A program made the translations under genes and the position numbers. 29,776 nucleotides of DNA from Candidatus Poribacteria bacterium (GTDB taxonomy: Bacteria > Poribacteria > DTPJ01 > WJIO01). The DNA is taken from assembly GCA_014730235.1 (NCBI GenBank), contig WJIO01000186.1, forward strand, positions 1-29,776. Reading direction: 5' to 3'. Below are positions 15,106-29,709 of this stretch, one piece after another. Below the pieces are notes generated by a model, which did not search any database, was not told the DNA's origin, and saw only the letters and a list, made by a program, of their open reading frames with translations. Positions within the stretch are counted from its first letter, which is position 1, and the number at the start of each line of letters is the position of its first letter.

Positions 15106-16461
15106 ATGCTATTGATTGGATGTCTTACTGTGTTTGTAAGTTCTATGACGGGCAGTATATCGGATGAAAACATATTTGAATTGGGCATGTGTACCCACTT
15201 CAGTCAGGGAAAAGGGATCGTTGAATCAAATATTTACAGCATGAAAATGGCCGGAATTAGCTCTATCCGGGATGAATCCACATGGAAAGATGTGGAAAGG
15301 ACAAAAGACGTTCTTGAAATATCCGAGAGGATTGATAGATATATTGACCATGCCAATAAAGAGGGCATTGGGGTTATGATGATCCTTGATTATTCCAACC
15401 CTTTTTATGATGATGGTGACAGGCCAAAATCTCCAGAAGCTGTGGAAGGTTTTTGTCGATATTCAGAACATATAGTTAAACATTTTGGGGATAAAATCAA
15501 ATGGTATGAAATCTGGAATGAATGGGATATTCCCATTGGACTTCCACCAAAGCACCAGGAAAAGAACGGTGAACGAAACAGGGGTAAAGCGGAGGATTAT
15601 TTTAACCTTTTAAAAGCTGTATATCCAAGAATCAAGTCTGCCAATCCCGATGCAATAGTTCTGGGCGGATGTCCCACACCCGGAGCCGTCAGAAACGGAT
15701 GGCTTGAAAAGATTATGAAGTTGGGTGCAGTGGATTACTGCGATGCCATATCCATCCATACATATAACTACAGCGCAAAGGGCTTTGACAGGACGCCGGA
15801 AGCGTGGCAGGCATGGATGCTGGAAGTTCAGGCCATGCTACGTAAATATAATAACGATAATGATCCTGATTTTTACGTTACTGAAATGGGCTGGCCGACT
15901 CATGTGGACGAGAGGGGAACATCACCTGAGCTTTCCGCGTCATATTTGGCAAGACTTTATCTCCTGGCCCGGACAATGCCATCTTTTGAGGGCTTATGGT
16001 GGTATGATTTCCAGGATGATGGCTGGAAAGCTGAATATAACGAAAACAACTTTGGAATCATACGTCCTGATTTGACTCCCAAACCGGCTTATTATGTAAC
16101 ATGGGATATATCAGAACTGGTTAAACATGGTGAATATCTAGGCAGAATGAAGACTTCCGACGAGAATCTCTGGTTGCTGCAATTCAAGCTTGATGGTGAT
16201 AATATATGGGCTGTATGGTCAGGGGACGACCAGGAGCGACAGGTTATTTTTGAGACTAAAGATACGGGGATAGATCTGTCGGTTTTGCAAACAGGCCATA
16301 AGCATATGGATATGAAATGGGGCCACAGGGATTGGGTAGATAATAGAGGTCAGCCTTTGATGAAATCCCGGATGTCACTAACTGTTGGACATCGACCTTA
16401 TATTCTGAAAGGTGGATTGGGTAATATATCTGTAGTAGATATTATCCCGCGACCGAGATGA
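15106..16461 (+). CDS. Secreted clan-A (beta/alpha)8 glycoside hydrolase, GH39/GH5-like
   Basis: This 451-residue protein begins with a short hydrophobic segment (MLLIGCLTVFVSS), then a TIM-barrel glycosidase. The clan-A acid/base glutamate is likely E139 in YEIWNEWD and the nucleophile E260 in FYVTEMGWPTH; IHTY (217-220) supplies the usual barrel histidine. LIGC at residues 3-6 resembles a lipobox, but the N-terminus is too short and lacks positive charges, and no in-frame upstream start exists before the stop at 15082-15084. A C-terminal region (about 345-450) looks like a beta-rich accessory domain. The substrate is unknown. It sits between cinA and thpR, where a glycosidase is not usual, and overlaps thpR by ATGA. 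Confidence 0.85.
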   Translation: MLLIGCLTVFVSSMTGSISDENIFELGMCTHFSQGKGIVESNIYSMKMAGISSIRDESTWKDVERTKDVLEISERIDRYIDHANKEGIGVMMILDYSNPFYDDGDRPKSPEAVEGFCRYSEHIVKHFGDKIKWYEIWNEWDIPIGLPPKHQEKNGERNRGKAEDYFNLLKAVYPRIKSANPDAIVLGGCPTPGAVRNGWLEKIMKLGAVDYCDAISIHTYNYSAKGFDRTPEAWQAWMLEVQAMLRKYNNDNDPDFYVTEMGWPTHVDERGTSPELSASYLARLYLLARTMPSFEGLWWYDFQDDGWKAEYNENNFGIIRPDLTPKPAYYVTWDISELVKHGEYLGRMKTSDENLWLLQFKLDGDNIWAVWSGDDQERQVIFETKDTGIDLSVLQTGHKHMDMKWGHRDWVDNRGQPLMKSRMSLTVGHRPYILKGGLGNISVVDIIPRPR

Positions 16462-17042: not shown

Positions 17043-17047
17043 AAGAT

Positions 17048-17080
17048 AACGGGGTTTTGAGTTTAACTCAAAACCCCGTT
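17048..17080. terminator. Bidirectional terminator hairpin between convergent operons
   Basis: AACGGGGTTTTGAGT (17048-17062) and ACTCAAAACCCCGTT (17066-17080) are perfect reverse complements around a 3-base loop. It lies between the thpR stop (plus) and the CDC48 stop (minus). The T runs are inside the arms and only weak T tracts follow (TCTTTT on the minus strand), so its intrinsic strength is uncertain. Confidence 0.8.
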
Positions 17081-17106
17081 AATCCACGCTTATTATACTA
17101 TCTTCC

Positions 17107-19245
17107 TTATCTCTCTATGGCTTTCATTGCAGCCTGGAAGTGTTCCATATTAATCTTTATCTGTGTATAATCTTTCTCCTGTTCATCTTTGCTTTTCTGG
17201 ATAAATTCCCGGATGGCTATCATTGCCGCCCGTCTGCATACAAATTCTATATCAGCACCTACCCGGTCATCTGTCATTTTAGCCAACTCATCATAATTAA
17301 TGTCATCAGCCAGTGGTTTTTCCCTTGTATGAACTTTGAATATCTCCAAACGGGTTTTTTCGTCAGGTTTTGGCATCTCCATAACCAGATCGAGACGTCC
17401 AGGTCTTAAGAGGGCTTCATCAATGAGATCACGACGGTTAGTGGCTGCAAGCACCACAACACCCCGAAGTTCCTCGATGCCGTCCATCTCAGTTAAAAGC
17501 TGGCTTATTACACGTTCTGAGACATGGGAATCGGATGCTCCGGAACGCGGTGGAGCGATGGCGTCCAGTTCATCCAGAAATAATACGCAGGGGCTGGATT
17601 GTCTTGCTTTCTGGAAAACCTCTCTTATTCCTTTTTCAGATTCGCCGACCCACTTTGAGATTAACTCAGGTCCTTTGATTGATATGAAATTTGCTTGACT
17701 CTCGGTGGCAACTGCCTTGGCCAGCAGTGTTTTTCCTGTTCCCGGCGCGCCGTGAATTAAAACACCTTTTGTTGGTGATATGTTGGCATATTTGAATGCA
17801 TCCGCGTATTTCATAGGCCATTCGACAGCTTCCTGGAGTTCCTGCTTGATCTCCTCAAGGCCACCCACATCCTCCCAATGCACATTGGGTACTTCGGTAA
17901 ATACTTCCCTGATGCCCGATGGTTCTATTTCGTTGAGGGCATCCATGAAATTATCCATGGTAACGTTAAGATCATTCAGAATTTCATAAGGGATGGAATC
18001 TATATCAAAATCTATTTTAGGGATAATTGTTCTAAGGGCTGTCATAGCTGCTTCCCGACTTAAAGCCTCTAAATCTGCTCCTGTATAACCATGAGTTATC
18101 TCAGCCATTTTATCCAGGTCAATATCATCAAACAAAGGCATTCCACGTGTGTGAATTTCCAGGATTTGTAATCTAGCCGGGGCATCGGGTATACCAATAA
18201 CGATCTCCCGGTCAAAGCGTCCTGGGCGGCGCAGGGCTGGATCAATCATGTTAGGTAGATTTGTTGCTCCAACTACTACAATCTGTCCCCGGTCTTTCAG
18301 ACCGTCCAGAAGGGCCAAAAGCTGTGCTACAACGCGTTTTTCTACATCTCCTACTACTTTTTCCCGCTTTGGAGCTATGGAATCTATTTCATCCAGAAAT
18401 ATAATGCTGGGTGCTTTTTGCTTTGCCTGTTCAAATATTTCCCTTAGCTGTCTTTCACTCTCACCATAAAACTTATGTATTACCTCTGGGCCACTTATAG
18501 AAAAGAAAGCTGCATCAGTTTCGTTAGCCACAGCCCGGGCTAGCAGTGTTTTACCACATCCGGGAGGTCCATGAAGCAAAACACCCTTGGGCGGCTCAAT
18601 CCCTAATTTCTGGAACAACTGGGGATGCCTTAAAGGTAATTCTATCATCTCCCGAACTCTTTGTATGGCTTTATCCAAACCACCAATGTCTTCATATGCA
18701 ATACCAGCTTTATTTTGTCCTCCTTCTCTTTGACCTTCTATATTAATTCTTGTATCAGGATGAATAAGGACTATATCATCAGGGGATGTTTTTGACACAA
18801 TAAATTCCTGGAACCTGGAACCAAAGAGGGTGGCTCTGACTACATCACCGGATACTACAGGTAAATCATTAAGTAGTTTGCCCACATATTTTGTGTCCCG
18901 TTGTTGTGAAAAACGGGTTTTCCCGGAAGCCTGAGTGAGATATATTAGCTTTGCTGGTTGGGCTGAAACTGGAGACAGTTTGACCTTTTCACCGATTCCT
19001 GTATCGGCATTACGACGGGTAAGGCCGTCAATCTGAATGATTTCTTTACCTCGATCATCAGGATACGCAGGCATTACCTTAGCGACTGTCATTCGTTTAC
19101 CCCGAATACTGATAATATCCCCTACAGAAACGTCAAGTTTTTTCATATCTTCGGGATCCATCCGGGCAAGACCTTTACCTGCATCCCGATTTAATCCTTC
19201 TGATACTTTAAGATTAATCGTATTTGGCTCTGTTCCTGCACCCAT
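17107..19245 (-). CDS. CDC48/p97/VAT-type double AAA ATPase
   Basis: This 712-residue protein has the full CDC48 layout. The N-domain (about 10-175: double-psi barrel with [14 protein letters not shown], then a second subdomain) is followed by AAA D1 and D2. D1 has Walker A GPPGCGKT (226-233) and Walker B FLDEID (283-288). D2 has Walker A GAPGTGKT (499-506) and Walker B FLDELD (556-561). Both Walker A lysines, both Walker B glutamates and the arginine-finger segments (RRPGRFD, LRPGRLD) are intact. CDC48 hexamers thread and unfold proteins or pull complexes apart. It is the last gene of the minus-strand gas vesicle locus and directly abuts the unknown gene upstream (TAA then ATG). A role in remodelling vesicle proteins is inferred from context. 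The ending KAIER shows no obvious proteasome-docking HbYX motif. Confidence 0.93.
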
Positions 19246-19815
19246 TTAATGATTCTCCTTTAGATTTTTTACCGATTTATAGATCTTGATGTCGTCAACC
19301 AATTTATCAGTCACTTTATGAAGAGCTCCCATAAACAAAAGGCCAGTTTCACCATCCTTCAGAGTCGAGTCAATCCTACAGGCTATATATTCATCCCGGC
19401 GTTTCATCAGATCGTCGTATTTGTTTGTTGAACCAACTACTCCCATGTTCTTAAGTCTTTCCCTTTCCTCTAGCAGTAGCTCTGATGCTTCTGTTCCAAC
19501 TATTGATGCTCCTTTTTGGATTAACTCCAGCAGTAGCTTATAATTTCTGTTGCCATCTTCTGCAAGGGCCTGGACTATTTTAAGTTCCTGATTACATACA
19601 GGTAGACTGTCCTGATAGATTTTTGCTTTTTTGTAATTAATAGGTAAATTGAGCAGTGTATTCCTGATTTCTGTCCAGAAATTTTCAACAGCCTTTATAT
19701 GTTCTTCCCATTTAGATTCACCATATCTAGCTGTGTATTGTTTTCTGGCTTCGGATAAATGGTTTCCCAGGTCTTCAGGTGTATGAACAATAGGTATATA
19801 AAGCAATTCTCGCAT
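19246..19815 (-). CDS. Unknown 189-residue protein of the gas vesicle locus
   Basis: I do not recognise this family. The protein is soluble, mostly helical and charged, with no signal or membrane segment. It starts with a strand-like MRELLYIPIVHTPEDLG and has GTEASELLLEERERLKNMG in the middle (about 113-131). The later segment GLLFMGALHKVTDKL holds a hydrophobic strand ending in G-A-x-H. The paired IPIVH, GTE and GALH elements recall TraB/EreA-type metal-site proteins, but this is too weak for an assignment. A GGAG ribosome site precedes the ATG. It lies two bases after a gvpF/L gene and directly before the CDC48 gene, so it is almost certainly co-transcribed with both; a partner or adaptor of the ATPase is one guess. 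Confidence 0.8.
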   Translation of the reverse strand: MRELLYIPIVHTPEDLGNHLSEARKQYTARYGESKWEEHIKAVENFWTEIRNTLLNLPINYKKAKIYQDSLPVCNQELKIVQALAEDGNRNYKLLLELIQKGASIVGTEASELLLEERERLKNMGVVGSTNKYDDLMKRRDEYIACRIDSTLKDGETGLLFMGALHKVTDKLVDDIKIYKSVKNLKENH

Positions 19816-19817
19816 TT

Positions 19818-20537
19818 TTACTCCAAGCCTTTCCAGAGATTTATATTTGCAAAAGTATAAGGAGGCCAGGGGCCTGAATAAAGCAAACGCAGGTCTGGAT
19901 TATTATTCCTGAACTGCTGGTAAGAGTATTTAAAGGATTCCAATTGATCCTGTTCGATCAGATAGCATATATTCCTGATAAGCATCCTTTTTATAATTTT
20001 AACGCTGGAGATAACTTCAGAACTATGGGGAATAAGGATTTTATCCAGCTTCTGTTTCAAATCTCCCGATATATCCTTTAATTTTTTTATATTGTCGTGT
20101 TTACGTTTTTTATTCATCAGGTAATTCATGCCATTTTGAATTTTTACTTCTTTATTATCTCTGGATTTTATATCTATGTTTTTAATATCAAATAAAATCT
20201 TTATACTGATTTCTGCTTTACCCTCAAGTTTTGACAGGTATTCATTCAGTATTTTCATATTTTCTTTTAAAAATATTATTATATCCTCAATATCCGGGAA
20301 AAAGGTGGCAAAGCGACATGGTATTATAGATTGAGATTGCTTAAAAATAATATCCACAACTTTCTGATGATTAATAACGTTGGTATTGTTAGCATCCAAA
20401 CTGCGAGAATCAATTTCACTAAAGAAAACCGATATATCACCCAAAGTTACAATTCGGATTCTTGAGTTGCAAATACCCGTAGATAGATCTTTTGGCATTA
20501 TTGTATTATTTTTGGTTAAACAATAAACATATTTCAA
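19818..20537 (-). CDS. GvpF/GvpL-family gas vesicle protein, copy 4 in transcription order
   Basis: This 239-residue protein starts with the family strand KYVYCLTK and contains the core HQKVVDIIFKQSQSIIPCRF (the 'H-x-x-V...ILP-x-RFGT' motif of GvpF/L). It ends with YSGPWPPYTFANI, the conserved 'GPWPPY-F' tail. GvpF and GvpL are cytoplasmic accessory proteins that bind GvpA-family proteins during vesicle nucleation. The internal segment about 110-150 is lysine-rich and divergent. The start appears to be TTG at 20537 with a weak GAAGAA upstream. It sits five bases after the preceding gvpF/L gene. Confidence 0.88.
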   Translation of the reverse strand: MKYVYCLTKNNTIMPKDLSTGICNSRIRIVTLGDISVFFSEIDSRSLDANNTNVINHQKVVDIIFKQSQSIIPCRFATFFPDIEDIIIFLKENMKILNEYLSKLEGKAEISIKILFDIKNIDIKSRDNKEVKIQNGMNYLMNKKRKHDNIKKLKDISGDLKQKLDKILIPHSSEVISSVKIIKRMLIRNICYLIEQDQLESFKYSYQQFRNNNPDLRLLYSGPWPPYTFANINLWKGLE

Positions 20538-20542
20538 GATTT

Positions 20543-21379
20543 TTATTCTTCTTTAAAAACATTGAATTCAGGACAGAAATTATAACACGGCCAAGGACCA
20601 CTTAACTCGAATAATATAAGGCTTGGTTTATGTCTAAGGGCAAGTTTATCCAAGTTTTTTTTGAAATTATCAAAAGATTTCTTATCAATCAAAAAAGCAG
20701 AATTAAGTATCATATCCATATTTTTTCCCGTTGCATTTCTGCCAAGAAGTTTATTTCTACATCCTGCTATGCACCAGGATGATATAGTCTTATATATTGA
20801 ATTAGAAAGATTTTTCAGGTAATTGGTGCGGAATTTGCTGATTAAGCTCTCCCGCTTTTTTTTCAATAGATATGCTTTGCCCGGTGGCATATGGGCAATA
20901 CGTTTATCCAGATCCACAATTTCTTTGCTTGATTTAGCTATTTCCTCTGAACCAGCGTCATTTTCAGCATATACCTTTATTCCCCATTCCTCTTTTCCAT
21001 CAACAACGTCAAAATAATCATTAAATTCCTTGAATCCCTTAACCAGTATATCAATGATTTTCTTGCTATCAGAATAGATAGTGCCAAAACGCATAGGGAT
21101 AATACTGTGATTCTCCATTGCTGTTCTTATTATTTTTTCATGGGTTCTTACTCTTGGAGTTAACCACTCAATGTTCTGAAGGGATTTTTCCAGTGCGTCT
21201 TCGTTATATTTATCTCTGGAAACTGAACTTACCAGAGCACCGAGGTTTTGGTGAGATAAAAAAAAGGTTTTATTTTGCCTATCTATTCCTGGATTTGATT
21301 CTATATCCGGTATACCCCTGAAAATACAATAAAGGTAAAAATTATTATTCTGGTCTAATCCTGATTCTTCTGCTTCCAC
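20543..21379 (-). CDS. GvpF/GvpL-family gas vesicle protein, copy 3 in transcription order
   Basis: This 278-residue protein has the family features in order: strand NFYLYCIFRG near residue 14, LGALVSSVSRDKY, then RTHEKIIRTAMENHSIIPMR continuing to FGTIYSD. After it come EEWGIKVYAE, a helical region with HMPPGKAYLLKKKRE, and the tail LSGPWPCYNF. The ferredoxin-like N-terminal half and helical C-terminal half match GvpF. The start is GTG at 21377-21379, with GGAG eight bases upstream; it overlaps the end of gvpH by 25 bp, which suggests coupled translation. Confidence 0.92.
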   Translation of the reverse strand: MEAEESGLDQNNNFYLYCIFRGIPDIESNPGIDRQNKTFFLSHQNLGALVSSVSRDKYNEDALEKSLQNIEWLTPRVRTHEKIIRTAMENHSIIPMRFGTIYSDSKKIIDILVKGFKEFNDYFDVVDGKEEWGIKVYAENDAGSEEIAKSSKEIVDLDKRIAHMPPGKAYLLKKKRESLISKFRTNYLKNLSNSIYKTISSWCIAGCRNKLLGRNATGKNMDMILNSAFLIDKKSFDNFKKNLDKLALRHKPSLILFELSGPWPCYNFCPEFNVFKEE

Positions 21380-21882
21380 AATTTAATCTCCACTATACCA
21401 TTTCTGTTTGAGTATTTAGTTTTTTCTTCATCAACAGGAGCGGAAAGTAGTATTTCCTTGTAATATTTTCGCTCTTTTTTTTCACCTGATAGTATAAGTA
21501 TATCTCCTTTAATTTCGTATTTTATTTCAGTTTCTGATACTCCAGGCATTTCAGCGATTACCAGTATATAATCACCTTCATCAAAAATATCCACCATAGG
21601 TTCCCGAATTTCATCAACTATCGGTCCTTGTTTTTTTTCTTTAACATTACCAAATTGTTGAACAGTAGCTTTTCCACCAGTTCCAAATTTCACAGAAACG
21701 CCGTATACGGCTTTCAAGTCTTTATCATCACCGATTACCCCTTCTTTTTTTATACTTTCGGATTTTTCGGCTAATTCACTTGCCAGATCGATCAGGGAAC
21801 CAAGACCTTTAAACAAACCTCCTAATCCTATATCAATATTTATGTTGCCTTTGACGTTATCCTTTTTATCATCTTTACCCAT
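21355..21882 (-). CDS. gvpH: GvpH, Hsp20-type gas vesicle protein
   Basis: The N-terminal third is glycine-rich (NINIDIGLGGLFKGLGSLID) as in bacterial and archaeal GvpH. The C-terminal part (about 85-175) is an alpha-crystallin/Hsp20 domain: EPMVDIFDEGDYILVIAEMP, GVSETEIKYEIKGDILILSG and NGIVEIKLWK. GvpH proteins interact with GvpA and other Gvps and act as holdase-like chaperones. The start is taken as ATG at 21882, nine bases after GGAGG; a TTG six bases earlier is also in frame but is too close to the ribosome site. The upstream side carries two hairpins separating it from gvpJ. Confidence 0.92.
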   Translation of the reverse strand: MGKDDKKDNVKGNINIDIGLGGLFKGLGSLIDLASELAEKSESIKKEGVIGDDKDLKAVYGVSVKFGTGGKATVQQFGNVKEKKQGPIVDEIREPMVDIFDEGDYILVIAEMPGVSETEIKYEIKGDILILSGEKKERKYYKEILLSAPVDEEKTKYSNRNGIVEIKLWKQKNQD

Positions 21883-21931
21883 TACCAATAACCTCCATCT
21901 TCAGTTTTACTGAATTATATATAATAATAGC

Positions 21932-22008: not shown

Positions 22009-22347
22009 TTAACTGGTTTTTTCTAATTCAGATATACGTTTTTTAAGAGCTTCTATTTCAGCTTCTTTATCTTCAAGTTGGTGTGCTTTTACTTCTTGTT
22101 CCAACCTTTGTTTGCGTTCCGCCATAGCACTTAAAAACGGATTACCTTCCCACCAATCTATACCCATCTCTTTGGCCCTTTCCACTGATGCCAGAAGCAA
22201 TCTAATATTGATTGTCAAAAGCTCAACTTCCAGAAGCTTAATACGGATATCGCCAGCAATAACAACGCCCTTATCCAATACTCTCTCAAGGATTTCCACC
22301 AGGTTATTTGCGTTGGTGGAATGAACAATTTGTTCTTGGTGTCCCAC
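22009..22347 (-). CDS. gvpJ: GvpJ, GvpA-family minor gas vesicle protein
   Basis: This 112-residue protein has a GvpA-like core at about residues 14-60 (NLVEILERVLDKGVVIAGDI, then LLEVELLTINIRLLLASVE). A longer coiled-coil C-terminus follows, from DWWEGNPFLSAMAERKQRLE to EIEALKKRISELEK. A GvpA domain with a helical extension is the pattern of GvpJ/GvpM, thought to act in nucleation and in shaping the conical tips. The start is GTG (22345-22347) with AGGGG about eight bases upstream; a nearby ATG is out of frame. It follows gvpK by 14 bases, giving the gene order S-K-J known from Bacillus megaterium. Confidence 0.93.
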   Translation of the reverse strand: MGHQEQIVHSTNANNLVEILERVLDKGVVIAGDIRIKLLEVELLTINIRLLLASVERAKEMGIDWWEGNPFLSAMAERKQRLEQEVKAHQLEDKEAEIEALKKRISELEKTS

Positions 22348-22361
22348 AGACCCATTCCCCT

Positions 22362-22691
22362 CTAATCAAGTAAATTTCCTAAAGGTCCTAAATCAATGTT
22401 TAGCTCTTCTATTTCAAAATATTCTTTCAACTCAATAATTTTTTCCTCTAACTTCATAAGAGTAGTACCGAGTCGCTCAATTTCTTCATCAGTTAGAGTT
22501 CCGCCTTCTATTCTTCTAATAGCCTGTTTTTCCAGCAACTGCCTGATAAGCTCTACCAGAGCCAGAACCAACTTTACAAGTCCTTGTTCTACTCCCTCTG
22601 GATCTACCTTCACCTTTGTAGGCTTTTTAACTGGTTCAAGGTTATTCGCAAAATCATCCAGGAATTTTGATGTTATCTCAGGTCGATTCAC
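22362..22691 (-). CDS. gvpK: GvpK gas vesicle protein
   Basis: This 109-residue protein has the GvpK core: KVDPEGVEQGLVKLVLALVE, LIRQLLEKQAIRRIEGGTLT and DEEIERLGTTLMKLEEKI. GvpK is one of the small proteins conserved in nearly all gas vesicle clusters and is needed for vesicle formation; its biochemical job is not settled. The start is GTG at 22689-22691, eight bases after GAGGA, and overlaps the end of gvpS by 14 bp. The N-terminal 25 residues vary in the family. Confidence 0.95.
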   Translation of the reverse strand: MNRPEITSKFLDDFANNLEPVKKPTKVKVDPEGVEQGLVKLVLALVELIRQLLEKQAIRRIEGGTLTDEEIERLGTTLMKLEEKIIELKEYFEIEELNIDLGPLGNLLD

Positions 22692-22911
22692 TGATTATTT
22701 CCTCATCCATTGCTTCAATAAGTGTTTCAACAGAACTTACCAGAACACTCAGACCTATATACAGAAGTTCCACACCAGCGACAGATATGCAAATTTCTCC
22801 AGTTAATACAGCCCCTTTATTTAATACGCGATCCAGAAGTTCACACAAAGAAATCCTTTGTTCCAATGATATATCATCATTATCATCTGGAAATTCATTA
22901 ATGATGTCCAT
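22678..22911 (-). CDS. gvpS: GvpS-like, GvpA-family minor gas vesicle protein
   Basis: This 77-residue protein carries the GvpA fold: SLCELLDRVLNKGAVLTGEI, then CISVAGVELLYIGLSVLVSS. It starts with an acidic head (MDIINEFPDDNDD). It differs from the shell protein in having GAVLTGEI in place of GIVVDAWA, which places it with the GvpJ/M/S minor proteins. The name GvpS rests on its position immediately before gvpK and gvpJ, as in Bacillus megaterium; GvpM is an alternative name. GAGGT lies before the ATG. Confidence 0.88.
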   Translation of the reverse strand: MDIINEFPDDNDDISLEQRISLCELLDRVLNKGAVLTGEICISVAGVELLYIGLSVLVSSVETLIEAMDEEIISEST

Positions 22912-22930: not shown

Positions 22931-23242
22931 TTACTCAACAATTTCCTCAAGATCCATTCTTTTACGCATGCTGCGGCGTTCATAATTAATAACATCACCA
23001 TCTTCGTCAAGTTCAACTTCGTATATACCCAATACATCCAGTGTATCAGGTATTGCTTTTCTCTCTATAAATTCAATGGTGATATTCCAACCATCTTCAG
23101 TTCTTGATGCTCCAACCACACTTGAAAGCTCCAATCCTATTAGCATTTGGAGTTGTTCAACAGCGTTGTTTATTGCATCCTTCAGTTTTAGACGAACCGT
23201 TTTATTCTCATGTAAGGTATTTATTTCTTCAATCTCAGCCAT
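22931..23242 (-). CDS. gvpO: GvpO gas vesicle protein
   Basis: This 103-residue protein matches GvpO. It has a helical N-terminus (LKDAINNAVEQLQMLIGLEL) followed by the conserved core GWNITIEFIERKAIPDTLDV and GIYEVELDEDGDVINYERR. GvpO is required for vesicle formation in haloarchaea and some bacteria and may influence gvp expression. AAGGAG is well placed before the ATG. It sits between the 3D-domain gene and gvpS in the same direction. Confidence 0.94.
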   Translation of the reverse strand: MAEIEEINTLHENKTVRLKLKDAINNAVEQLQMLIGLELSSVVGASRTEDGWNITIEFIERKAIPDTLDVLGIYEVELDEDGDVINYERRSMRKRMDLEEIVE

Positions 23243-23924: not shown

Positions 23925-24161
23925 TTAACCTCCGCCTTTTTGAGCAGCTATCTCTTCCAAAATATCCACAAGCTCTTCTTCTTTTTCTTCAAATTCCTCT
24001 TCGCTGATTTCACCTTTTTCCAATTGTAAATAAAGATTTCTTAAATCTTCTCTTATCTTATCTTCATTAAAAAGCTCTTCTTTTGCCATTTCGTCAATTT
24101 TCTTAGCTATAAATACCGGTAATTTTATTGGTGCCAGTAAAATATTATCAAGAATACCCAT
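23925..24161 (-). CDS. gvpG: GvpG gas vesicle protein
   Basis: This 78-residue protein is a typical GvpG: the start MGILDNILLAPIKLPVFIAK is followed by a charged helical tail with LRNLYLQLEKGEISEEEFEE. GvpG is a small cytoplasmic accessory protein that works with GvpF and GvpL in vesicle nucleation. It follows a gvpF/L gene by five bases, the usual neighbourhood, and its end contains the ribosome site for the 3D-domain gene. Confidence 0.95.
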   Translation of the reverse strand: MGILDNILLAPIKLPVFIAKKIDEMAKEELFNEDKIREDLRNLYLQLEKGEISEEEFEEKEEELVDILEEIAAQKGGG

Positions 24162-24166
24162 GACTA

Positions 24167-24952
24167 CTACCTTTCGAGATGCAATTCCAGTCTGTCAACA
24201 AAACTGAATGGAGGCCAGGGACCGTCAAGTTTGAGGGAATACTCATTTCCCATATTTTCGCCTAGTCTATCAATGGCCTTTTCCAGATCAGAACGCATGT
24301 CTTTTTCAATTAGCAAAGTTGCATTAGTTATTGTTGAATCATTGTTTATTTCTTCAACCCGGGCTTCTCCCGGAGGAAGATGGGTTAAAATATCATTGGT
24401 TATCTGTTCTCTGGTTTTTTCCATTCTCTTGTGGAAATAAGTACCAAAATCAATAATTTCCTTACGTCCCAGGGATTTACCCTCGCCCATGTATTTATCC
24501 CGAATGGATCTGAGTTTATCATCCCTGTCAATGAAATACTTAAACACATCATCAACATTCCATTCAACCTTTAATCCCATTTCAACTTTGTTCTTAAGTC
24601 TTTCAAGCTCCTGTCGAATAGTTTGGTAACTTTTACGCAGAGCAATATTAACCTCACCTGCATCTCTAGCTATCTGACCGAATCTGGCAGGAATTGTGGT
24701 AAAAAGCTCTGATGCCTTGCGTATCACTTCATGGTATGGAGCCAGATTTTTCCTGAGAAGTTTAATGGAATCAACACGAGGATAATCACTTACCAGAGCA
24801 CCAATATCTTCATAATGAATGCTATGGACAACTTTATTATCCAGACCTATAGGACCGAAGTTACTTTCCTGATCTGAAAGAATAACAGCGTAAAACAATT
24901 TTCCATAATGGGAGCTTCCGTTATTTACTTTTCTTGTAACTCGCTTTCTCAT
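24167..24952 (-). CDS. GvpF/GvpL-family gas vesicle protein, copy 2 in transcription order
   Basis: This 261-residue protein shows the GvpF/L order: first strand [11 protein letters not shown] near residue 18, [34 protein letters not shown], then [14 protein letters not shown] long helical region follows with [12 protein letters not shown], and the tail is [16 protein letters not shown]. The N-terminus has about 15 extra basic residues. Its ATG overlaps the stop of the J-domain fusion gene (ATGA), so the two GvpF/L proteins are probably made together. It precedes gvpG. Confidence 0.92.
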
Positions 24953-25986
24953 CGGATCAATAACCTCTCTGCAATAAAAACTTTTTCAACTTCATCTCTT
25001 GAGAACGAAAAAACAGCATTTTTTCCATCTTCAAGAGAACTGCTATAACTATGACAATATGACTCTAAAATTTTATAGGCTTCGTCTATTTCTTTAAAAA
25101 GCTTATATGATTCCTTGTCTCCATCCGTTTTGTCAGGATGGTATTTCAACGCAAGTCTTCGATAGGATGCCTTAATATCATCCAGATGTGCTTTTTCCGG
25201 GAGTTCCAGCCTTCTACGGGCTTTATCAATTAATTCATAATTGCCTTTTTTGAATTCAAGTGGTGCAAAACTATAGGGAGGAATTGGGCCAATATATTTA
25301 AAACTGAGGTAAGATTCATTTTCATTACCAAGTTCCTCCATAGCCTTATCGAATTCTGCTTCATCCTGTCTATTGATGAGATAGCTCCTGTTAAAAATAA
25401 TTGAGTCATCGGCTGATCTACCTTCTGATGAATCAATAGATACATTGGATAATTTGTCGTGAATAGAATCAATAATCTGGCGTTTTAGTTTTTCTGCTGA
25501 CTGGAACAGTAGTTTACCAAGCTGAATTTTATCATTAATGTCAATAGATTTCACAGCCTCTTTAAGCCAGTTTTCATCTTTACTTATATTCTGTAAAACT
25601 GTATCCAGATCCCAGAAAAGCTGAACTGCAAATTCAGCTTTATTGCGAAGGTTATTCAGTGCCCATTTAATATGTATGTAGGAATTGGCCATGAATTCCT
25701 CAACCTGTTCTTCCTGATCCACCATAATTCCAAATCTAAGCGGGAGTATAGTGAGGTTTTGGAATATATTTATATTTATCTGTTGGTAAGATGCAAGAAG
25801 GACTTTAAGTTCAGCTTCATGCATTCCGGGCTGTTCAGCAATAGCAGGATCTATTTTTCTGGTGATAGTTGTAAGATCTTTATAATTTATGCTATGTATC
25901 GTCTCAGGAATGGAAATATATTCATTTTCAAATTTGGTAGTTTCAACGATACAATGAAGCAAGAATGTATTTAATTTTTCTGTCAT
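24949..25986 (-). CDS. GvpF/GvpL domain fused to a C-terminal DnaJ domain
   Basis: This 345-residue protein has a GvpF/L part at residues 1-245, recognisable by [20 protein letters not shown] continuing to G86, the [12 protein letters not shown] segment and the closing [16 protein letters not shown]-domain follows at about 253-312: helix [22 protein letters not shown] with the essential HPD at 283-285, then [17 protein letters not shown]-domains stimulate Hsp70 ATPase, so this copy could bring DnaK to nascent GvpA complexes. A tail of about 30 residues ends the protein. The frame is continuous across the junction. The ATG has AAAGG about ten bases upstream. No dnaK or grpE is in the window. 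Confidence 0.92.
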
Positions 25987-26043
25987 AATAGGTTAACCTT
26001 TCCAGCAAATTTACAGATCAGTATTTAATTGTAAACTACTATA

Positions 26044-26078
26044 ATTATATATAAAAGGGTGTGACATACTTACGTCAC
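26044..26078 (-). promoter_or_regulatory. Possible promoter with overlapping dyad for the GvpF/L-DnaJ operon
   Basis: On the minus strand TATAAT (26049-26044) lies about 58 bases before the start codon. No good -35 box is present at the right distance. Instead an imperfect 18-bp palindrome (GTGACGTAAGTATGTCAC, 26078-26061; 14 of 18 positions symmetric) covers that position, as an activator or repressor site might. The spacing does not fit a CRP site. Confidence 0.4.
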
Positions 26079-26132
26079 TTTAGTCCTGGTATTTTGTATT
26101 TTGAAATTTAGTCGGGTAAATACAAAAGATTC

Positions 26133-26153
26133 GGGCACGAAAATTTCGTGCCC
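26133..26153. terminator. Terminator-like hairpin upstream of the GvpF/L-DnaJ operon
   Basis: GGGCACGAAA (26133-26142) and TTTCGTGCCC (26144-26153) are perfect reverse complements with one base between them. On the minus strand the stem is followed by GAATCTTTTGTATTT, a moderately T-rich tail. It would end transcripts coming from the gvpA-abrB side. Confidence 0.7.
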
Positions 26154-26220
26154 ATTAAAAATGATTGCTTTTGTTAACCTATTTTGTTATGAAATCGCTA
26201 AAAATAAAGATATGTTTACT

Positions 26221-26432
26221 GTAATCGTTAAAAAATGAAAAATGTATTTAGAAAATACTTTTATGATGATGGTAAATTACAAAATTTGTCATTCCTGCGA
26301 AACTCTTATTCCTTTTTACTCAAGCCTTTTCAAAAAGCTTGAAGCAGGAGTCCAGAAAAAACTTATCCAGAAAGACCGGATTCCTGCTTTTGCAGGATGA
26401 CATCATGAATGATATTCATTTCTAACGATTAC
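26221..26432. mobile_element. MITE-like element, copy 2 (212 bp)
   Basis: The ends are GTAATCGTTAAAAAATG (left) and, as reverse complement, GTAATCGTTAGAAATGAAT (right), matching the ends of the element at 10089-10248. Subterminal arms TGTCATTCCTGC (26287-26298) and GCAGGATGACA (26392-26402) correspond to the hairpin arms of copy 1, here separated by 93 bp that include a further GATTCCTGC/GCAGGAT stem. The flanks do not give a clean target duplication. It ends two bases beyond the stop codon of the AbrB-type gene. Confidence 0.78.
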
Positions 26433-26434
26433 TG

Positions 26435-26719
26435 TTACTGTTTTAAGATTATTAGTTTTCTATTCCCAATTGTATTTGTAAACCTGACATTTACAACATC
26501 ATTGGGTTTTAGATCCATAAATGACAGCAAGTTATCTGGAATAACAAGTCTATTTGATGAATCCAAACGGGCTAATCCTCTTATAATACCTATAGACCTT
26601 GAAATATTACCATTCAGTTTATGATGACGATTATTAAAACACCTTATATACCTGAAATGTTTTATTTTGCCCGATGTTTTTATATTTCGTCTTGTTTTAA
26701 GTTTAATAATATTTCGCAT
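26435..26719 (-). CDS. AbrB/SpoVT-type DNA-binding protein in the gas vesicle locus
   Basis: The 94-residue protein has a C-terminal AbrB/SpoVT swapped-hairpin domain at about 47-93: IRGLARLDSSNRLVIPDNLL, then FMDLKPNDVVNVRF and NRKLIILKQ. The first 45 residues are basic and unlike known partners. AbrB-type domains bind DNA as dimers or act as antitoxins. No toxin gene is next to it, so a local regulator of gvp genes is the simplest guess. It starts three bases after the coiled-coil gene, in the same direction, and a MITE-like element begins two bases beyond its stop. Confidence 0.75.
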   Translation of the reverse strand: MRNIIKLKTRRNIKTSGKIKHFRYIRCFNNRHHKLNGNISRSIGIIRGLARLDSSNRLVIPDNLLSFMDLKPNDVVNVRFTNTIGNRKLIILKQ

Positions 26720-26722
26720 AGC

Positions 26723-27046
26723 TTAATATTTTAAAATAACCTCAGCCTTTTTTTCTGATTCATTATCTTTTGCGTTTTGATTTTGTTTATTTATTTTTTC
26801 TCGAACGCCCAGTCTCTCCATAAGTTCATTTTCTTCCTCATCAATTTCTTCCAGGCGTTTTGAGATCCTGTCTATTCTTTTTTCCCAGTTATTTTTTTCC
26901 TTGTTTAGTCTCTGTCTTTCACGACCAAGACCAGCCAGTTCGTTGTAAATATCATATTCATCATAGTGATTCCGCATCCGCAAAGCAGTTTTAATGCGTT
27001 TTGTGGTATTAGGAATATCTCTTATTCCTCTTATTCTTCTTTCCAT
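26723..27046 (-). CDS. Small coiled-coil protein of the gas vesicle locus, family unknown
   Basis: I do not recognise this 107-residue protein. It is highly charged, with a long heptad-like helix at about 35-85 (LGRERQRLNKEKNNWEKRID, then ISKRLEEIDEEENELMERLG) and a lysine/asparagine-rich tail. The N-terminus is strongly basic (MERRIRGIRD). No signal or membrane segment is present. It lies between gvpN and the AbrB-type gene. Its ribosome site is poor, and an in-frame TAA at 27062-27064 separates it from a short upstream ATG frame, so the true start or integrity of the gene is open to question. Confidence 0.65.
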   Translation of the reverse strand: MERRIRGIRDIPNTTKRIKTALRMRNHYDEYDIYNELAGLGRERQRLNKEKNNWEKRIDRISKRLEEIDEEENELMERLGVREKINKQNQNAKDNESEKKAEVILKY

Positions 27047-27171: not shown

Positions 27172-28053
27172 TTATCCAATTATATTTTCAATTGCTTTCT
27201 TTACCTGACCACTGGTATCTGAACCTTTACATATAACATCCAGACATGTTTCAATGAAAACCCTATCATCAGTTTTCACTTTGACTTCCTGCTTATTAAC
27301 AATATCGGCAATCATGATTGATGCTCTGATAGTGGGGTCAAAACTTATATCCTGGTTTTCCCTTATATGCCTGACAAGTTCCACTATTTTATTTGATTCT
27401 TTTTCAGGCATACCTGATTTTGCCGATGTAATAGCAGCTTCAGTTTGGGCATCATAACATCCCAGGTTAATGGTAATCATTCTATCCAGTAAAGCGCTCT
27501 GAGGAGTATAAACCCCCGCATATTCATCAGGATTACTGGTGAATATAGCCCGGAATTCCGAATGAATATTGATGTAACTTTCACCGTATCTGCTTTCCGG
27601 TAATACCAGGAGTCTTTCTTCCAAAGCCGACAAAAGAACATTGTTAGCTTCTGCCCTAGAACGGGAAAATTCATCATAAACGAGTGTATATCCATTTTTG
27701 CATGCTGTGGTTAGTCTTTGATCAACCCAGACATTGGATACATTTTCCTCAGTTTTTACAACAGAATGAACAAAGTTGTCCACCAGACGTTTTGAAACAA
27801 TACCCTTATCATTACCCAGTAGATCTGAAGAACCAAATTCTTCATCGCCATATATAATCATCACCGGGCGACCAATTACACCAGCCAGGTGCATAGCTAA
27901 AGTGGTTTTACCCGTCCCTGCAGGGCCGCTAAGATGGACAGGGTAACCAGCTTTTAGATATGCCAAACAGCGCCGACATATACTCTTTATTAACGGAGTA
28001 ACAACGAAATCCTTTCCCGGTTCAAGACGAAGAACAGTCGCCTGTTGTGCCAT
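27172..28053 (-). CDS. gvpN: GvpN, MoxR-type AAA+ ATPase for gas vesicle assembly
   Basis: This 293-residue protein has a Walker A at 43-50 (GPAGTGKT), the GvpN-specific YGDEEFGSSDLLGNDKG, a Walker B at about 123-129 (TLVYDEF followed by SRSRAEANNVLL) and the sensor region FRAIFTSNPDEYAGVY with LLDRM. GvpN is an ATPase that enlarges or matures gas vesicles, in part with GvpC. GAGGGG lies before the ATG. It follows the GvpC-like gene by 28 bases, the same C-N order as in cyanobacteria and haloarchaea. Confidence 0.96.
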   Translation of the reverse strand: MAQQATVLRLEPGKDFVVTPLIKSICRRCLAYLKAGYPVHLSGPAGTGKTTLAMHLAGVIGRPVMIIYGDEEFGSSDLLGNDKGIVSKRLVDNFVHSVVKTEENVSNVWVDQRLTTACKNGYTLVYDEFSRSRAEANNVLLSALEERLLVLPESRYGESYINIHSEFRAIFTSNPDEYAGVYTPQSALLDRMITINLGCYDAQTEAAITSAKSGMPEKESNKIVELVRHIRENQDISFDPTIRASIMIADIVNKQEVKVKTDDRVFIETCLDVICKGSDTSGQVKKAIENIIG

Positions 28054-28081: not shown

Positions 28082-29242
28082 TTAACTCTTTGGATAATAA
28101 AGATTATCAATTTTTTCGACTTTATTTTCATCAACTAAAGGTTTTATAACAGATATAAGGCCTCTCCAATCAACACCCATTTCATTTCCAATATCAACCA
28201 GCTTAATGCCTTCAGGATGTTTACCAATCATTTCCAGAACCTGATCTTCTGTGGAAATATTTTCTTCCTCTTCTTTTTCAGGTGAAGCTTCTTCAGAAGT
28301 CGGTTCTTCGACTTCATCCTGCGGGGTTTCAGGAGAAGGTTCCTCATCCTCATATTCTTCCTCTTCCGATTCAGTTTTTGAAGGTGGTTCTTCAACTTCA
28401 TCATCTTCGGAGGAATCTTCCTGATCTAAAGCCTCTTCGATAACGGTAGTTGTTTCCGTCGTTTCTACCACAGAGGAAAACAATTCTATCCATATATCCC
28501 TTGCTTCTTTTCTGTCAGAAGCTATGCTATTTAGCATTTCATTTATGGCTTTGCTTCGGGCTTCTTCATCAGCAGAAACCTTTTCTCTCAGATTCTTGGA
28601 CATTTCCTGAATATCAGATCTGACACCTTTCATGAATGAATCAACCTCATCTATGAGGCTTTTGGCAGCTTCTTTTCGGGCTTTCTCATCTGAGGCCATC
28701 TTTTCCTGTAAGGCCCTGGATGTCTCTGCCATTTCCGATTTCATATCATCCATAAAGGATTTTACCTCATCCCTGAGCTGATTAACTGCATCGCTTCTTT
28801 GTTTTCTATCGGAAGCAATTTTTTCTTCCAGGGATTTGGACATTTGCTGTAGATCTGATTTTATACTTTCTTTGAAGTTTTTAACTTCGTCCATCAACTG
28901 TTTTGTTGCCTCACTTCGGGCAGCTTTATCGCTGGCCATTTTATCCTGAAGTTCTTTTGACATATCCTGAAGGTCATTTCTGACTTCATCCAGGAATACC
29001 TTAACGTTATCCATAAGCTCTTTTGAAGCCTTCATACGACTTGCTTTATCTTCGGATATCTTATCAGCCAGAGCTTTGGACATATCCTGACGCTCTAATT
29101 GGAAACGTTCTATGAGGTTATGAGTATCAGATTTCATCTCACTGACTTTGACGTGACGATCCTCGGTGGAGGCCCTACGGTTTTCAGCAGATGCTTTTAT
29201 ATCCTCTACCAGATTCCGCATTCCATTACTCAATTCACCCAT
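28082..29242 (-). CDS. GvpC-like protein: five 40-residue repeats, acidic linker and C-terminal winged helix
   Basis: The 386-residue protein has three parts. Residues 52-251 are five consecutive 40-residue repeats with consensus QDMSKxLxEKxASDxxARxx, then AxxxLxDEVKxFxxxxxSDx, all strongly helical; the stretch before them (about 9-51) may be a worn sixth copy. Residues about 265-330 are very acidic (EEEEYEDEEPSPETP). Residues about 332-386 look like a winged helix (EDQVLEMIGKHPEGIKLVDI, then VDWRGLISVIKPLVDENKVE). Helical repeats of 33-40 residues between gvpA and gvpN are the mark of GvpC, the outer strengthening protein, and haloarchaeal GvpC also has an acidic part. The winged helix is not part of the classical protein. 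AGGAGG precedes the ATG. Confidence 0.85.
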   Translation of the reverse strand: MGELSNGMRNLVEDIKASAENRRASTEDRHVKVSEMKSDTHNLIERFQLERQDMSKALADKISEDKASRMKASKELMDNVKVFLDEVRNDLQDMSKELQDKMASDKAARSEATKQLMDEVKNFKESIKSDLQQMSKSLEEKIASDRKQRSDAVNQLRDEVKSFMDDMKSEMAETSRALQEKMASDEKARKEAAKSLIDEVDSFMKGVRSDIQEMSKNLREKVSADEEARSKAINEMLNSIASDRKEARDIWIELFSSVVETTETTTVIEEALDQEDSSEDDEVEEPPSKTESEEEEYEDEEPSPETPQDEVEEPTSEEASPEKEEEENISTEDQVLEMIGKHPEGIKLVDIGNEMGVDWRGLISVIKPLVDENKVEKIDNLYYPKS

Positions 29243-29490: not shown

Positions 29491-29709
29491 TTATGCAGGA
29501 ACAGCGGCGGTAGCGGTTAGACCAACGGCTTCTGCATATTTCAGGTATGTGTCAACTGAGGCAACTACGACGCGAGCTTCAACAGCCAGTATTTCGATAC
29601 CGACCAATGATACTCTTGCCCAAGCATCTACCACAATACCTTTGTCAAGAATGCGATCTACAACTTCTGCCAAACTACTTGAATCCATTGTCTTCTGTAC
29701 TGAAGCCAT
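29491..29709 (-). CDS. gvpA: GvpA, major gas vesicle shell protein
   Basis: This 72-residue protein is a clear GvpA. It has the helix [20 protein letters not shown], the strand [20 protein letters not shown] and the second helix [15 protein letters not shown]. These form the ribbed wall of the vesicle, with the hydrophobic face to the gas. The alanine-rich end (ATAAVPA) is usual. AAGGAGG nine bases before the ATG is a near-perfect ribosome site, in keeping with high expression. It is the first gvp gene in the window on this strand. Its promoter is probably within or beyond the last 67 bases. Confidence 0.98.

Follow-up and report, generated by a model that had tools for sequence, protein, structure and literature searches.

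Why should a CDC48/p97-type unfoldase be encoded at the end of a bacterial gas vesicle cluster, and what is the small protein encoded directly in front of it? Both questions are raised by the window, i.e., the whole stretch of 29,776 nucleotides that was analysed here (contig WJIO01000186.1 of a Candidatus Poribacteria bacterium). An initial annotation, made from the sequence alone, had described a full CDC48 that follows without any gap an unrecognised gene for 189 residues, itself located two bases after a gvpF/L gene. This arrangement is exact to the base, with the 712-aa CDC48 at 17107-19245, the small gene at 19246-19815 and gvpF/L at 19818-20537. The position at the end of a genuine gvp cluster was also recognised correctly, as GvpA, a GvpC-like protein, GvpN, GvpV, GvpF, GvpG, GvpO, GvpK, GvpJ, the Hsp20-type GvpH and GvpF/L are all encoded upstream. 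The cluster and its 3' end comprise the following features:

17047..17081 (-), strong intrinsic terminator with a 16-bp stem directly after gvpZ, 3' end of the cluster
17107..19245 (-), GvpZ, CDC48/p97-family double-ring AAA+ unfoldase with N-domain, 712 aa (TIGR01243 with 969 bits, PF02359, PF02933, PF00004 twice); orthologue of Serratia GvpZ by family and gene order
19246..19815 (-), GvpY, 189 aa, predicted TIKI/EreA-ChaN-like fold, probable hydrolase; homologue of Serratia GvpY (AF2 pLDDT 93, fold matches, weak TraB profile matches in 41 of 72 members)
19818..20537 (-), GvpF/GvpL family protein (PF06386, E=1.4e-38)
20543..21379 (-), GvpF/GvpL family protein (PF06386, E=1.3e-52)
21355..21888 (-), GvpH, Hsp20-type small heat-shock protein and probable functional partner of GvpZ (NF041800 archaeal Hsp20, E=2.6e-40, 137.7 bits, slightly below the cut-off of 140)
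22009..22347 (-), GvpJ, GvpA-like (PF00741, E=2.6e-15)
22362..22691 (-), GvpK (PF05121, E=3.2e-32)
22678..22911 (-), GvpS/GvpA2, GvpA-like (PF00741, E=6.4e-17)
22931..23242 (-), GvpO (PF05800, E=5.2e-25)
23925..24161 (-), GvpG (PF05120, E=2.6e-18)
24167..24952 (-), GvpF/GvpL family protein (PF06386, E=1.9e-43)
24949..25986 (-), GvpF/GvpL with fused C-terminal J domain and HPD motif (PF06386 and PF00226)
26723..27046 (-), GvpV-like short coiled-coil protein (family matches in 40 loci, mostly after gvpN, which is the gvpV position in the Serratia locus L063)
27172..28053 (-), GvpN AAA+ ATPase (AAA_5 match; position as gvpN of annotated clusters)
28082..29242 (-), GvpC-like repeat protein, repetitive and helical, with gvpA on one side and gvpN on the other
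29491..29709 (-), GvpA, main shell protein, close in sequence to Serratia GvpA1

The stop codon TAA of gvpY abuts the start codon ATG of gvpZ and a GGAG ribosome site lies inside gvpY, which suggests that both genes may be translated in a coupled manner. A gap of 448 bp (25987-26434) contains several terminator-like stems and suggests a division of the cluster in two putative transcription units, with gvpY and gvpZ ending the second one. A separate transcription unit for the pair found no backing since promoter-like sites in the region occur at chance level (46 versus 42.6 expected). Two further genes are located within the cluster: one for a 3D-domain protein with a probable membrane anchor between gvpG and gvpO (PF06725; 23297-23920, minus strand), for which no relative was found in other gvp loci, and one for a short AbrB-like protein (26435-26719, minus strand) with related genes in the gvp loci L012, L013, L017 and L023. 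A 451-aa protein of glycoside-hydrolase-like look is encoded at 15106-16461 on the plus strand and has no Pfam match at E 1e-5. The contig is no obvious contaminant of its genome bin, as its RimO shares 59% identity with that encoded in the sole other genome of the order, a value above those for the remaining members of the phylum.

The identity of the pair was revealed by its relatives. Plasmid matches of the 189-aa protein lie in gvp clusters of Methylosinus and Methylocella in which gvpH is followed by the small gene and then by CDC48. When 84,980 species genomes were scanned, 173 relatives were obtained, and 80 loci were kept. One relative (L063) belongs to Prodigiosinella confusarubida LacA, also called Serratia sp. 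ATCC 39006. Its genes, read from the sequence, follow the order A1 C N V F1 G W A2 K X A3, a 192-aa homologue of the small protein, a regulator, H, CDC48, F2, F3 and two regulators. The published Serratia order is gvpA1CNVF1GWA2KXA3Y / gvrA gvpHZF2F3 gvrB gvrC (PMC9501494; order also in PMC4982088). The homologue at L063:10001-10579, located directly after gvpA3 and 45% identical to the window protein over the best segment (E=2e-42), is GvpY, and the CDC48 at L063:13440-15602 occupies the published position of gvpZ. As both orders match, the 189-aa protein of the window is, by homology and gene order, GvpY and the CDC48 is GvpZ. An earlier guess from the printed gvpH-gvpZ order, namely that the small protein is GvpZ, was ruled out by the L063 sequence. 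The partner gene had been called unrecognised; this is correct for its function, as gvpY and gvpZ were both published as genes of unknown function (PMC4982088, PMC5601083), but it already had a name. This means that the pair is not new and represents a known but unexplained part of bacterial gas vesicle clusters. In the open literature we found no paper that calls GvpZ a CDC48, though Ramsay 2011 may do so, and the database annotation in such gvp clusters already reads 'CDC48 family AAA ATPase'. Here, we add the assignment of both genes, the finding that they strictly co-occur, a probable origin for CDC48 proteins that occur sporadically in bacteria, and the predicted fold of GvpY with candidate active-site residues.

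GvpY loci are distributed over many phyla. Among 84 of them another gvp gene is present on the fetched stretch in 75 and a CDC48 gene in 73; the remaining loci are mostly located on short contigs. In eight of ten genomes with a CDC48-less GvpY locus a full CDC48 is found elsewhere in the assembly. Relatives of the pair are thus found in gvp loci and not, as the initial annotation had considered damaging for its proposal, mostly outside of them. The family of Methylobacter (201 genomes) allows a direct count: gvpK is present in 14 genomes; exactly these 14 also have GvpY, and 12 of them have CDC48, whereas none of the 187 gvpK-negative genomes contains GvpY or CDC48 (Fisher p ~1e-21 for GvpY and ~1e-17 for CDC48, with kinship of the genomes ignored). 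The two genomes without CDC48 have their gvp genes on contigs of 3 and 10 kb. In the phylum of the window (84 genomes) gvpK and a full CDC48 occur once each, both in the genome of the window, and the other 83 genomes have neither. A match of CDC48 length occurs at only one place in 32 of 35 GvpY genomes (in one of them as two broken pieces) and a second copy in three. The class around Desulforhopalus has one gvp genome in 257, too few for a use of class-wide co-occurrence, and a scan of viral contigs with GvpY gave no match. From the co-occurrence in the Methylobacter family and in the GvpY loci it follows that GvpZ is an unfoldase dedicated to gas vesicles. The association of the pair with gas vesicles is strong; co-occurrence of clustered genes is a matter of shared inheritance and does not by itself show direct action. 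The correlation of tree distances between GvpY and GvpZ (0.77) is hardly above that between GvpY and GvpN (0.74) and does not single out the pair. One orphan gvpY (L010, 14974-15591) is located among insertion sequences on a plasmid of Octadecabacter arcticus with no gvp genes within ~15 kb. In Methylocella tundrae the CDC48 gene is split in three frames in one plasmid record and intact in that of another strain (L011 15617-17796, L123 4986-7181), so this break may be a sequencing error.

The N-domain and the two rings with their key residues, already seen at first inspection, were confirmed by profile searches. GvpZ of the window matches TIGR01243 over residues 10-710 with 968.8 bits, i.e., in full length and above the curated cut-off of 802.65, and comprises CDC48_N, CDC48_2 and two AAA modules. 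Among 61 full-length GvpZ sequences the Walker A Lys, the Walker B Asp-Glu, the sensor-1 Asn and the arginine fingers are near-invariant in both rings, and all are present in the window. Pore loop 1 of these sequences mostly reads K-[FY]-Y-G in ring 1 (D1) and [YWF]-[VI]-G in ring 2 (D2). Intact active-site residues together with aromatic pore loops support the view that GvpZ would work as a hexameric, processive threading motor. No common HbYX proteasome tail was seen among the 61 C-termini. In other systems CDC48 pulls subunits from assemblies, and this speaks for a disassembly role. In the phylogenetic reconstruction gvpZ proteins are separated from the CDC48 of archaea and rhizobia (FastTree support 0.98). 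CDC48 genes without relation to gas vesicles, found on rhizobial and Methylobacterium plasmids and in haloarchaea, are all placed outside the gvpZ clade. Inside this clade fall the second CDC48 copies of GvpY genomes, located outside gvp loci (L092 6044-8218, L093 6194-8341, L094 4426-6693), which may derive from gvpZ; their common neighbourhood consists of a GntR-type regulator and 2-oxoacid:ferredoxin oxidoreductase-like subunits.

Although the gas vesicle linkage of CDC48 and the small gene stands, GvpY is not the usual immediate neighbour. Directly before CDC48 (69 full-length cases) an Hsp20 gene, i.e., gvpH, is found in 40 and gvpY in 13. On haloarchaeal plasmids Hsp20 also directly precedes CDC48, with no gvp genes nearby (L118 6762-9271, L119 6576-9226). 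The simplest story would be that gas vesicle clusters took up an Hsp20-CDC48 pair of archaeal type. Fusions of GvpF with a J domain occur in 16 gvp loci including that of the window (24949-25986). They add a second link to chaperone systems and may recruit DnaK to vesicle assembly.

For GvpY no dedicated family model exists in NCBIfam, and a PDB sequence search with its profile gave chance matches only. The AF2 model, built from 69 sequences, is predicted with high confidence (pLDDT 93, pTM 0.88). Among its best structural matches are ChaN (Z 8.9), HopBA1 (7.7), PMT (6.7), EreC (6.3) and RRSP (6.0), values in a range that can be background; Foldseek found nothing below E=0.001 when the model was compared with PDB and viral models. 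ChaN, HopBA1, PMT and the Ere proteins have been grouped in one superfamily, named TIKI or EreA-ChaN-like (PMC6254334). That five of the best independent structures should derive from one superfamily would not be expected by chance. On the level of profiles, 41 of 72 GvpY sequences match TraB_PrgY_gumN (PF01963), all of them weakly (best E=7e-4), one sequence gives a weak match to ChaN, and whole-genome searches with the TraB profile recovered GvpY in four of eight genomes. As the protein of the window reaches only 17 bits, under the gathering cut-off of 26.8, we do not file GvpY as a member of the TraB family.

Several polar residues of GvpY are conserved. Among 72 sequences His11, Asp69 and Arg140 are invariant (72/72) and Glu109 and His166 are each present in 71. 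In the model His11, Asp69, Glu109 and His166 come after strands 1, 2, 3 and 4, respectively, at the C-terminal end of each, and the local TraB profile match places Arg140 and His166 on the Arg and the last His of TraB. If compared to the described 2His/2Glu motif (PMC6254334), both His are kept, Asp69 replaces the Glu of the second strand, Glu109 is additional and there is no Glu near His11. No signal or membrane segment was seen. By its modelled fold GvpY would work like a TIKI-fold protein and is probably a hydrolase, and this fold together with the invariant His, Asp, Glu and Arg makes it more hydrolase-like than adaptor-like.

What such a pair would do for the vesicles is indicated by published deletions. 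In Serratia strains with deleted gvpY, gvpZ or gvpH gas vesicles are still made (PMC4982088, PMC10344784), so the role is non-essential there. When the cluster is expressed in E. coli, loss of any one of gvpY, gvpZ and gvpH leaves acoustic signal and opacity diminished or absent (PMC10344784). Taken together, these phenotypes point to a helper in assembly or quality control under strain and disfavour disassembly as main role. The reading we favour, with a confidence a little above the balance, is a dedicated quality-control set of holdase, unfoldase and TIKI-fold hydrolase for vesicle proteins. GvpH would hold aggregation-prone Gvp proteins and, as its gene neighbourhood suggests, be the partner of GvpZ, with which in some clusters also the J-domain GvpF may cooperate. 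GvpZ, judged from its family and its intact active-site and pore residues, would be a hexameric motor of the CDC48 type, with proteins being threaded through the two rings; co-occurrence supports gas vesicle proteins as its substrates. By dismantling Gvp complexes that are misfolded or have reached a dead end, it may allow the assembly of the shell to continue. GvpY would be soluble, have a TIKI fold and a conserved pocket, and most likely act as a hydrolase on a Gvp client of this same system, which it would cleave or trim, enzymatic and non-enzymatic roles being about evenly balanced. The whole set would aid assembly and be conditionally dispensable.

The alternative that survives best, a minority possibility in our estimation, is that GvpY is no enzyme and delivers Gvp clients to the GvpZ N-domain, the adaptor role proposed from the beginning. 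This would be consistent with strict co-occurrence and frequent adjacency in either order (within 150 bp in 22 of 71 cases), and some TIKI-fold proteins without the catalytic motif, such as PMT, are not proteases (PMC6254334). The adaptor role is weakened by the predicted enzyme-type fold, shared with many hydrolases, and by strand-end His, Asp, Glu and Arg residues whose invariance exceeds the needs of an adaptor; moreover, in many loci gvpY and gvpZ are not adjacent. A further reading, rather unlikely in our opinion, would be an unfoldase-peptidase machine of GvpZ and GvpY in which the bacterial CDC48 hands unfolded Gvp proteins to a TIKI-fold protease, independent of any proteasome. Clearly unlikely is a regulatory function, in which GvpZ and GvpY would use unfolding or proteolysis to adjust either the amount of a gvp regulator or the proportions of the accessory Gvp proteins. 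A sigma-54-type regulator gene between gvpY and gvpH-gvpZ in L063, a gap of the right size at the same place in many loci, and the importance of Gvp ratios in Serratia (PMC5601083) would fit; in contrast, the cluster of the window has no such regulator in that place and the E. coli phenotype is seen outside the native host. Disassembly, with GvpZ pulling out subunits of the shell or of GvpC for degradation by GvpY whenever the cell is to sink, is the least favoured of the three roles proposed initially and quite improbable. ClpXP can strip GvpC from vesicles once a degron is added (PMC9501494), which would fit such a role; in contrast, the genes belong to an assembly operon and are made while vesicles grow, and loss of gvpY or gvpZ in E. 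coli lowers or abolishes the acoustic signal instead of raising it (PMC10344784).

On the favoured reading of a quality-control set, two gas vesicle genes of 'unknown function' gain testable roles with named residues. This is also of practical value as gas vesicle clusters serve as reporters for ultrasound and their yield in E. coli is affected by gvpY as well as by gvpZ. The cluster further points to a set of protein quality control for one organelle, formed by Hsp20, J domain, CDC48 and a TIKI-fold protein.

In comparison with known systems, the window and Serratia share homologous GvpY and GvpZ proteins in the same kind of locus. In the window the two genes stand side by side at the end of the operon, gvpY first, whereas the gvpY of Serratia closes one operon and its gvpZ belongs to the following one (PMC4982088), adjoining gvpH in L063; gvpW and gvr genes, present in Serratia, were not seen in the cluster of the window. 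With the TIKI/TraB/PrgY and EreA-ChaN superfamily GvpY would share the fold, as predicted from the model, and it has two His, an Arg and acidic residues at strand ends as well; it differs by the absence of Glu at the first-strand position of RRSP, by its score under the Pfam cut-off and by its tie to a CDC48. Archaeal Cdc48/VAT provides the closest solved structure to GvpZ (5g4f) and has aromatic D1 and D2 pore loops as well, but GvpZ forms a clade of its own without a common HbYX tail. Archaeal Cdc48 is known to have two hydrophobic residues in the loop of ring 1 that eukaryotic Cdc48 lacks (PMC6017811). Cpa is, like GvpZ, a bacterial Cdc48 relative with two AAA modules; its gene follows proteasome genes and it forms its own cluster, in contrast with GvpZ, which follows gas vesicle genes. 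The Cpa paper mentions 'sporadic' archaeal-type Cdc48 in other bacteria, and many of these are probably GvpZ. This offers a reason for the scattered occurrence of archaeal-type CDC48 in bacteria, much of which seems to be a gas vesicle gene.
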